DNA of 64,000 nt from Planctomicrobium piriforme (GTDB lineage Bacteria; Planctomycetota; Planctomycetia; Pirellulales; UBA1268), in the NCBI GenBank assembly GCA_945869735.1, contig CAMBPQ010000008.1:1-64000 (forward strand), given 5' to 3'. Positions 5,521 through 59,857 of the stretch are shown here, in pieces. Below the pieces are notes generated by a model, which searched no databases, was not told where the DNA came from, and saw only the letters and a program-made list of their open reading frames with translations. Each line of letters begins with the position of its first letter. Positions within the stretch are counted from its first letter, which is position 1. The translations under genes and the position numbers were made by a program.

Positions 5521-5673
5521 GGGCGGGTTGGGTTGGTGCGCGTATTCCCCGCCCACAAGAAGCCCGGAGCGCGAGCGATGGGTATCCGGGTGGCGACTTC
5601 GGTGGTGGCGGGGAGCGGGACGGGGTGGGGGGCGTATTCCCCGCGCTTGCGCTTGGGGCTTCCTGACGGGAGG
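5521..5673. repeat. REP-like: truncated A', B, spacer, A'
   Basis: GCGTATTCCCCG|CCCACAAGAAGCCCGGAGCGCGAGCGATGGGTATCCGGGTGGCGAC ... GCGTATTCCCCGCGCTTGCGCTTGGGGCTTCCTGACGGGAGG. Confidence 0.88.
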
Positions 5674-26547: not shown

Positions 26548-26670
26548 CGGGCGGATTCCCCGCGCTCGCGCTTGGGGCTTCCTGACGGGAGGCGGCGCGA
26601 ATCGGCACGCGCTGCGTCGGGTGCCCTCAAAAAGCCCGGAGCGCAAGCGATGGGTATACGGGTGGCGACC
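26548..26670. repeat. REP-like A' then B
   Basis: GCGGATTCCCCGCGCTCGCGCTTGGGGCTTCCTGACGGGAGG ... CAAAAAGCCCGGAGCGCAAGCGATGGGTATACGGGTGGCGAC. Confidence 0.88.
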
Positions 26671-35623: not shown

Positions 35624-35795
35624 AGGAAGCCCCAAGCGCGAGCGCGGTGAATACGGCCACCACCCTATCCCGCTCCACACCACCCCCTCGCCCGCCACCC
35701 GCTTTCCCATCGCTTGCGCTCCGGGCTTTTTGGTTTCAGGAAGCCCCAAGCGCGAGCGCGAGGAATACGGCCCCTCACCCAACCCGCTCCGCCAG
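35624..35795. repeat. REP-like A, B', A plus truncated spacer
   Basis: AGGAAGCCCCAAGCGCGAGCGCGGTGAATACGGC ... CCCATCGCTTGCGCTCCGGGCTTTTTG ... AGGAAGCCCCAAGCGCGAGCGCGAGGAATACGGC. Confidence 0.88.
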
Positions 35796-46130: not shown

Positions 46131-46362
46131 GTATTCCCCGCGCACGCGCTTGGGGCTTCCTGGCAGGAGGCGGGCGTACGGCTCACGCGGTGACGCTTCC
46201 TGGCCGCAAGAAGCCCGGAGCGCGAGCGATGGGTAGACGGGTGGCGACCGAGATGATCGCGCGGAGCCGAGTGGGATTCGGGGCGTCTACCCCGCGCTTG
46301 CGCTTGGGGCTTCCTGGCGGGAGGCCGACGGGGATGCGGGTGGCGACCGTCGTGATCGCCCA
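46131..46362. repeat. REP-like A', B, A', truncated B end
   Basis: GCGTATTCCCCGCGCACGCGCTTGGGGCTTCCTGG; AAGAAGCCCGGAGCGCGAGCGATGGGTAGACGGGTGGCGAC; CCCCGCGCTTGCGCTTGGGGCTTCCTGGCGGGAGG; GGGGATGCGGGTGGCGACC. Confidence 0.87.
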
Positions 46363-49254: not shown

Positions 49255-49405
49255 CCGTATTCCCCGCGCTCGCGCTTGGGGCTTCCTGACGGGAGGCGGT
49301 GCCCCCAAAAAGCCCGAAGCGCAAGCGCCGGGAATACGGGTGGTGACCGTGTTGGCGGCGCGGAACGAGACGAGGTCGGGAGCGTATTCCCCGCGCAGCC
49401 CCACC
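49255..49405. repeat. REP-like A', B, truncated A'
   Basis: CCGTATTCCCCGCGCTCGCGCTTGGGGCTTCCTGACGGGAGG; AAAAAGCCCGAAGCGCAAGCGCCGGGAATACGGGTGGTGAC; GCGTATTCCCCGCGCAGCCCC. Confidence 0.87.
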
Positions 49406-51800: not shown

Positions 51801-52053
51801 GTACCGACTTCTCGCACGGGCCAGGACGGGTTCGGGAAGTGATCGGAAATCGCGGTGGGTCGAGCCCATCGCAGCCCGGCGAACGTCCGACAGCGAAGGC
51901 TGCGCACGCGCCGGCAGGATGGGATGACTTTGCTTGTCACATCTTCCGGACGGGTGGGGAGGGTAGTGATCCTCCCGGACGCGTTCAAGGGCGGGTTTTC
52001 CCTAAAAACAACGGCCTGGAAGGCCTGGGAAGACGAGGCTACGCCGCCTGCCG

Positions 52054-52220
52054 TCAGGAAGCCCCAAGCGCGAGCGCGGGGAATATGGCTTCCACGCCAA
52101 CCCGCTCCACGCGACTACCGAAGTCGCCACGCGTATTCCCATCGCTTGCGCTCCGGGCTTCTTGAGGGCACCACCGCCACGCCGTCAGGAAGCCCCAAGC
52201 GCGAGCGCGGGGAATACGGC
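52054..52220. repeat. REP-like A-B' composite (131 bp) + extra A, 3' side of RAYT
   Basis: TCAGGAAGCCCCAAGCGCGAGCGCGGGGAATATGGCTTCCACGCCAACCCGCTCCACGCGACTACCGAAGTCGCCACGCGTATTCCCATCGCTTGCGCTCCGGGCTTCTTGAGGGCACCACCGCCACGCCG + second A. Confidence 0.93.
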
Positions 52221-52235
52221 CCGCATCCCATAGAG

Positions 52236-52751
52236 TCATTCGTTTTGGCGGGGCCGCTCTTGGCAATCCCGCACATAGATCGCCACATCCTCGAGACTTC
52301 GCTGATCGAAGAGAAGTCGGCCGCTTCCACCTTTGGCCCACCACCGCCACGACTTCGACACGCTCCGCCGCTCCTCGTGCGTATCGAGGGCACGGGTCCC
52401 CCACGCCTTGAGTTCGCTCATCGCGGTGCTCGCGGAAGAATCAACTGCGGTCAAGACAACATGCACGTGTTGAGTGCGGCACTGACACGCATGTAGCGTC
52501 CAACCGCGGAAACGACAGTGTGCTGCGATCGACCGTGCGACGACGCCTCGCTGGAGCGACGTGAGCGTGATCGGTCGCATCACCATCTGCCGCCGGGCGG
52601 CCTGCTCGACGAATCGGTTTGCCACCTGAACACCACCACGTCGATCCACCCACCCACGGCTGTCCCCGGGAAGCCACGACCCGTAGGTCGTCCACGTGAG
52701 AAATAACGCGACAGGATCGGGGCGGATGATGGAACCGGGTTCGTGCGACAT
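52236..52751 (-). CDS. RAYT/Y1 HUH-type transposase (REP-associated tyrosine transposase candidate)
   Basis: FLTWTTYGSWLPGDSRGWVD; HUH motif TQHVHVVL; C-terminal Tyr in LEDVAIYVRDCQ; flanked by REP-like hairpin units. Confidence 0.87.
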   Translation of the reverse strand: MSHEPGSIIRPDPVALFLTWTTYGSWLPGDSRGWVDRRGGVQVANRFVEQAARRQMVMRPITLTSLQRGVVARSIAAHCRFRGWTLHACQCRTQHVHVVLTAVDSSASTAMSELKAWGTRALDTHEERRSVSKSWRWWAKGGSGRLLFDQRSLEDVAIYVRDCQERPRQNE

Positions 52752-52752
52752 T

Positions 52753-52782
52753 CCAAAGAGTGTACGGGCGTATATTCTTTGG
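52753..52782. promoter_or_regulatory. dyad upstream of RAYT gene
   Basis: CCAAAGAgtgtacgggcgtatatTCTTTGG immediately before the RAYT start codon. Confidence 0.4.
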
Positions 52783-52790
52783 TCAACGGG

Positions 52791-52921
52791 TCAGGAAGCC
52801 CCAAGCGCGAGCGCGGGGAATATGGCCTCCACGCCAACCCGCTCCACGCGACTACCAAAGTCGCCACGCGTATTCCCATCGCTTGCGCTCCGGGCTTTTT
52901 GAGGGCACCACCGCCACGCCG
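52791..52921. repeat. REP-like A-B' composite (131 bp), 5' side of RAYT
   Basis: matches 52054-52184 except for three substitutions by eye. Confidence 0.93.
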
Positions 52922-59760: not shown

Positions 59761-59857
59761 GCGGATTCCCCGCGCTCGCGCTTGGGGCTTCCTGACGGGA
59801 GGTGGCGGGCGGCGACGCCGACAAAAAGCCCGGAGCGCGAGCGATGGGTCTACGGGT
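59761..59857. repeat. REP-like A' then B
   Basis: GCGGATTCCCCGCGCTCGCGCTTGGGGCTTCCTGACGGGAGG ... CAAAAAGCCCGGAGCGCGAGCGATGGGTCTACGGG. Confidence 0.87.

Follow-up and report, generated by a model that had tools for sequence, protein, structure and literature searches.

Why single-copy RAYTs persist in bacteria and when they are active are questions on which the locus analysed here bears. It lies in a 64-kb stretch of DNA (the window) of the 3.17-Mb planctomycete genome G000 and comprises a RAYT-like gene placed between two composite repeats. The locus is probably a REP/RAYT module consisting of a class-3-like HUH/Y1 enzyme and cognate two-hairpin repeats, with a promoter that, judged by its sequence, would be under a LexA operator. 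This explanation was ranked above the insertion-sequence, pure-terminator and non-LexA-palindrome readings, which are considered below together with the evidence concerned.

Organization of the RAYT locus

The gene and the repeats around it were located as follows:
52053..52184 (+), composite copy 1, REPIN-like, 132 nt, downstream of RAYT, with three differences from copy 2
52057..52080 (+), A unit of composite 1
52139..52162 (-), B unit of composite 1
52188..52211 (+), extra A unit, about 16 bp beyond the stop codon of RAYT
52236..52751 (-), gene for the RAYT-like HUH/Y1 protein of 171 aa, with catalytic candidates H95, H97 and Y159, and with Q164
52790..52921 (+), composite copy 2, REPIN-like, 132 nt, upstream of RAYT
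52794..52817 (+), A unit of composite 2
52876..52899 (-), B unit of composite 2

The first-pass annotation had described a 171-aa RAYT-like ORF with a TQHVHVVL motif between two direct 131-bp composites differing at three positions, and a further A unit 16 bp past the stop codon. The ORF and the extra unit were recovered at these coordinates, and the three differences between the composites were mapped to 52090, 52120 and 52161, while the length had to be corrected to 132 nt, with starts at 52053 and 52790. Each composite contains an A unit on the plus strand and a B unit on the minus strand, the starts of which are 82 bp apart. The consensus feet of the hairpins are TCAGGAAG for A and TCAAGAAG-like for B. 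The inverted arms of the composite are 38 nt long and the copy 1 sequence folded into one long hairpin, far better than shuffled sequences (z -5.8). The folding energy of isolated single hairpin units was no better than that of shuffles, and the stability of single hairpins was therefore left out as evidence.

The hairpin units were indeed scattered through the window, as previously noticed, with 29 A/B units detected relative to a mean of 0.04 in dinucleotide shuffles. The genome-wide search for these repeats revealed 473 units in G000 and one for the reversed-pattern control. REPINs, or BIMEs, are defined by two inverted REPs folding together and present in more than 100 copies, and the composites correspond to this definition with their 38-nt arms, z-score and genomic number of units. 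The dispersed copies in the window included the following:
5558..5663 (no strand), B-A composite with 82 bp between unit starts
26559..26653 (no strand), A-B pair with 71 bp between unit starts, also found at the syntenic place in genome G044
35625..35762 (no strand), A-B-A composite with 82 bp between the starts of the first two units
46137..46314 (no strand), A-B-A composite with 82 bp between the starts of the last two units
49263..49331 (no strand), A-B pair, the syntenic place in G044 being without a pattern match
59769..59847 (no strand), A-B pair, A/B pattern match

The 82-bp spacing of unit starts thus recurs among the composites. The presence of REPs differed at syntenic spots of G000 and its sister species G044, though no clean pair of empty and filled sites was found between the two genomes. 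Their intergenic DNA is too diverged for the exact insertion ends of REPs to be defined.

The RAYT-like protein

The 171-aa product contains both TQHVHVVL and WTTYGSWLPGDSRGW. H95, H97, Y159 and Q164 were invariant in 14 homologs of 45-72% identity, including both ends of the Y----Q signature, Y159-VRDC-Q164. The dN/dS ratio of RAYT was 0.15-0.32 in four pairs, with the value of 0.28 for G000 versus G044. Profile searches with Pfam Y1_Tnp and NCBIfam IS200 gave only weak, sub-threshold Y1 matches, the NCBIfam REP_Tyr_transpos score was below the cut-off (18.6 versus 80 bits), and phmmer against PDB sequences gave no match. An AlphaFold model was built from the 14 homologs (pLDDT 75.9) and its best 30 fold matches in PDB were all transposases of IS200/IS605 or REP type, including 4er8, the E. 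coli TnpA_REP. Among the 398 genomes of the order that were sampled, 158 contained homologs of RAYT, which were also present in many named planctomycetes, e.g., Blastopirellula, Rhodopirellula and Rubripirellula.

The protein is a divergent, non-canonical relative of RAYTs. In comparison with class 2, TnpA_REP, it shares the 4er8 fold and the arrangement in which inverted REP pairs of high copy number flank a gene present once, as in REP/RAYT systems with REPINs, but it lacks YIxxNP, scores below the REP_Tyr_transpos cut-off and is accompanied by hairpins without the GTAG foot. Class 3 TnpA_Y1 proteins flanked by high-copy hairpins have already been described in Planctomycetes (Quentin et al. 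2018, PMC6006769). The hairpins of this class can be high-copy, numbering about 600 in Solibacter (PMC6006769). That class carries the Y----Q signature, as class 1 does, in place of YIxxNP, and so does the RAYT studied here. Further similarities are the HUH/Y1 core, the W[TA] motif, the length (about 178 aa in class 3), a conserved N-terminal region, the planctomycete hosts and several flanking hairpins in high copy genome-wide. The 5' foot of the hairpins, TCAGGAAG/TCAAGAAG, is not plainly the CnGA tetranucleotide of class 3. By sequence, the protein appears to fit class 3 TnpA_Y1, a placement made by the described features. The earlier identification stood as far as a RAYT-like HUH/Y1 protein is concerned, but not as a canonical RAYT.

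Due to the IS200-like Y----Q motif (PMC6006769) and the weak Y1_Tnp and IS200 matches, the gene could also be regarded as a minimal self-moving insertion sequence of the IS200/IS605 type, with the flanking composites as its ends. Against this, the RAYT gene was confirmed to be single-copy in G000, whereas gene-less hairpins number hundreds, and it is located at the same place beside folD in both G000 and G044. Such an element is highly improbable here, and the REP/RAYT module proposed by the first-pass annotation was supported. Its further suggestion that this RAYT was the founder of the whole repeat family found no support, since the RAYT and the REP type are common to G000 and its sister species G044 and so both predate G000, and no transposition event was observed.

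Association of REPs with RAYT across genomes

The analysis of this association covered 74 genomes from the family, and a strong RAYT match was obtained in 14 of them. At all 14 RAYT loci examined, repeats were common to both flanks, with the repeat sequence differing between loci. REP similarity between loci tracked RAYT similarity (Mantel r=0.48, p=2e-4) and did not track the host genus (r=-0.04). One REP type was common to G046, G060 and G073, which represent three genera, and another was common to G041, G051 and G035.

Four REP patterns were derived from the RAYT flanks. Type 1 was present in 732 copies in G044, 473 in G000, 439 in G009, 397 in G012, 279 in G042 and 275 in G053. Counts of type 2 were 287 in G041, 158 in G051, 117 in G035, 79 in G047 and 74 in G042, with no more than 7 in other genomes, while type 3 reached 336 in G073, 325 in G059 and 280 in G060, and type 4 was counted 752 times in G043. 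With 30 copies chosen as the cut-off, 14/14 RAYT genomes and 7/60 others were REP-rich (Fisher p=2.5e-10), a count that favours RAYT-bearing genomes by the origin of the patterns. The Mantel test, using RAYT loci only, is independent of this bias in pattern design.

The expectation that REP number tracks RAYT presence was borne out to this extent, with seven exceptions. REP-rich relatives without a RAYT, which had been named beforehand as evidence against the link, were seen in a minority of the drafts: G008, G010, G011, G059, G064 and G065, and additionally G047, in which only a degenerate remnant was detected. As the former six are drafts and RAYTs are frequently placed on short contigs or close to the end of a contig, loss and non-assembly of the gene are indistinguishable. 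The match in G047 (G047:C594) is tentatively assigned as a degenerate C-terminal remnant beside REPs. In G042, a second RAYT was observed, which is truncated by its contig and accompanied by another hairpin type (G042:C149).

These exceptions, the short G+C-rich character of many units and the shuffle-like folding of single hairpins would suit a view of the hairpins as old repeats or as transcription terminators of the ordinary kind, among which RAYT sits without acting on them. Such a view seems very unlikely, as it is opposed by the repeats shared by both flanks at 14/14 loci, by REP types following the RAYT phylogeny across genera, by the folding of the composite and by the recurrent 82-bp spacing of units.

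A LexA-box-like palindrome in the RAYT promoter

A LexA-type operator, absent from the first-pass annotation, was identified upstream of RAYT together with candidate promoter elements:
52761..52774 (no strand), LexA-box-like palindrome TGTACGGGCGTATA (TATACGCCCGTACA on the minus strand), with its end 9 bp before the ATG of RAYT
52781..52786 (-), candidate -35 element TTGACC of the RAYT promoter, read from the sequence
52759..52764 (-), candidate -10 element TACACT, separated by 16 bp from the -35 element and overlapping the palindrome, read from the sequence

Homologous RAYT promoters have TTGACA at the -35 position, and in most RAYTs of the family a TRTAC-N4-GTAYA palindrome covers the -10 region, 15-52 bp before the start. 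Only five perfect copies of this palindrome were found in the 3.17 Mb of G000. They precede RAYT, an ImuA-like gene (assigned with a profile score below its cut-off), a vitamin-B12 ribonucleotide reductase, YifB/ComM and a DUF2075-like gene named by eye rather than by a profile match. One-mismatch boxes precede lexA, recA (two boxes) and ssb. Sites with up to one mismatch were not in excess genome-wide, 21 being counted in G000 versus 25 for the reversed pattern, and the case for an operator rests on the locations of the sites. In the genus, the box was located upstream of lexA in 20/21 and of recA in 16/18 cases, at similar distances.

A scoring matrix was trained on lexA and recA sites alone, without any RAYT site. 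It gave more than 16 bits in 11/15 RAYT promoters of the family and at least 11 bits in 13/15. The region upstream of RAYT was the sole 90-nt stretch in the window at 17 bits, and none of the 1956 control stretches from RAYT-bearing contigs reached 15 bits. The RAYT promoter of G073 had a weak box, and that of G060 had no box near the gene and a one-mismatch form further upstream. In the latter genome (G060:C106), the box is displaced by a REP array that separates the RAYT promoter (TTGACA, TGGACTTCTGTACA) from the start of RAYT.

In other families of the order, lexA reached at least 17 bits in 14/21 genomes, and a strong box in the RAYT promoter was present in only 2/18 (G229 and G265, which are sister genomes). 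In these two, TGAACGACCGTTTA was found 16 bp before the start of the match, and the region upstream of their own lexA had no strong box. The G265/G229 box is possibly an independent gain. The RAYTs of the family under study form one clade (support 100/98) and, with the box strong in this family and rare elsewhere, a single recruitment of the RAYT lineage into the LexA regulon is the simplest reading. The family's lineage is thus predicted, from these sequences, to have joined the LexA/SOS regulon.

The palindrome could also be the operator of another regulator or of RAYT itself and merely resemble a LexA box, with the REP/RAYT pairing being real. A short palindrome over the -10 region could suit many repressors, and GTAC half-sites are favoured in RAYT boxes, while in the same genus the lexA boxes favour TGAAC/GTATA and the recA boxes TATAC/GTTCA. 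However, the same box precedes the imuA-like gene and the ribonucleotide reductase in G000, TGTAC-N4-GTATA is present before lexA itself in many other families of the order, and the matrix devoid of RAYT sites still detected the RAYT boxes. Control by a regulator other than LexA is accordingly considered unlikely. The motif known from E. coli is not the one used by LexA in planctomycetes (PMC3108266), and a LexA box of the form TGTAC/TGAAC-N4-GTATA is proposed on sequence grounds for a large part of the planctomycete order.

Proposed mechanism and comparison with other systems

The anatomy of the locus, the copy numbers, the co-variation of REPs and RAYT and the operator common to lexA, recA, ssb, the imuA-like gene and the ribonucleotide reductase were established directly. 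We infer that LexA binds the palindrome, that RAYT is repressed and then induced by damage, that single-stranded DNA is cleaved and that REPs move. During normal growth, LexA would keep RAYT repressed. DNA damage would activate RecA, leading to the cleavage of LexA and the synthesis of RAYT, which would be produced when single-stranded DNA, including the REP substrate, is plentiful. The HUH/Y1 enzyme would then act on folded REP/REPIN units, cutting via Tyr159. It may cut and join single-stranded cognate REPs, and rarely move or copy a composite. The operator would in this manner link an enzyme of a type specific for single strands with the condition in which the most substrate is available.

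It is conceivable, though held with somewhat less than even confidence, that in one planctomycete family a class-3 RAYT was domesticated and turned into a genuine gene of the DNA-damage response, processing hundreds of REP hairpins after the loss of LexA. If so, damage-timed processing of REPs could be an aid to repair or replication, or could represent damage-timed spread of REPs. The conserved SOS operator on one RAYT clade points to a concrete condition, DNA damage, and to a testable host function.

ISDra2 and IS608 TnpA (IS200/IS605) share the fold and the HUH/Y1 centre with the RAYT-like protein. The transposition of ISDra2 is stimulated by irradiation, with tnpA expression not being induced (PMC2806898). 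ISDra2 moves itself and its tnpA is not induced by irradiation, whereas the RAYT gene is predicted to be inducible. SOS-controlled integron integrases (PMC3108266) are likewise DNA-rearranging enzymes under LexA control, as predicted for RAYT, but they are tyrosine recombinases, i.e., another enzyme with another substrate. The REP/RAYT module and the class 3 features are known, and the regulatory variant is apparently new. The text of the class 3 paper (PMC6006769) contains no mention of SOS, LexA or regulation, and no paper joining RAYT or REP with LexA or SOS was found in a search whose coverage excluded most subscription papers and preprints.

Other genes preceded by the perfect box

The perfect box before the vitamin-B12-dependent ribonucleotide reductase gene was located at G000:C5:52537-52550, and this reductase is a plausible SOS gene. 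Another one, at G000:C47:5318-5331, lies 92 bp before the gene for the YifB/ComM-type ATPase. Genes of this type are tied elsewhere to natural transformation, and the box may indicate possible SOS control of DNA uptake. The box at G000:C101:948-961 separates the DUF2075-like nuclease/helicase gene from a small divergent gene of 99 aa, which resembles a toxin-antitoxin component.
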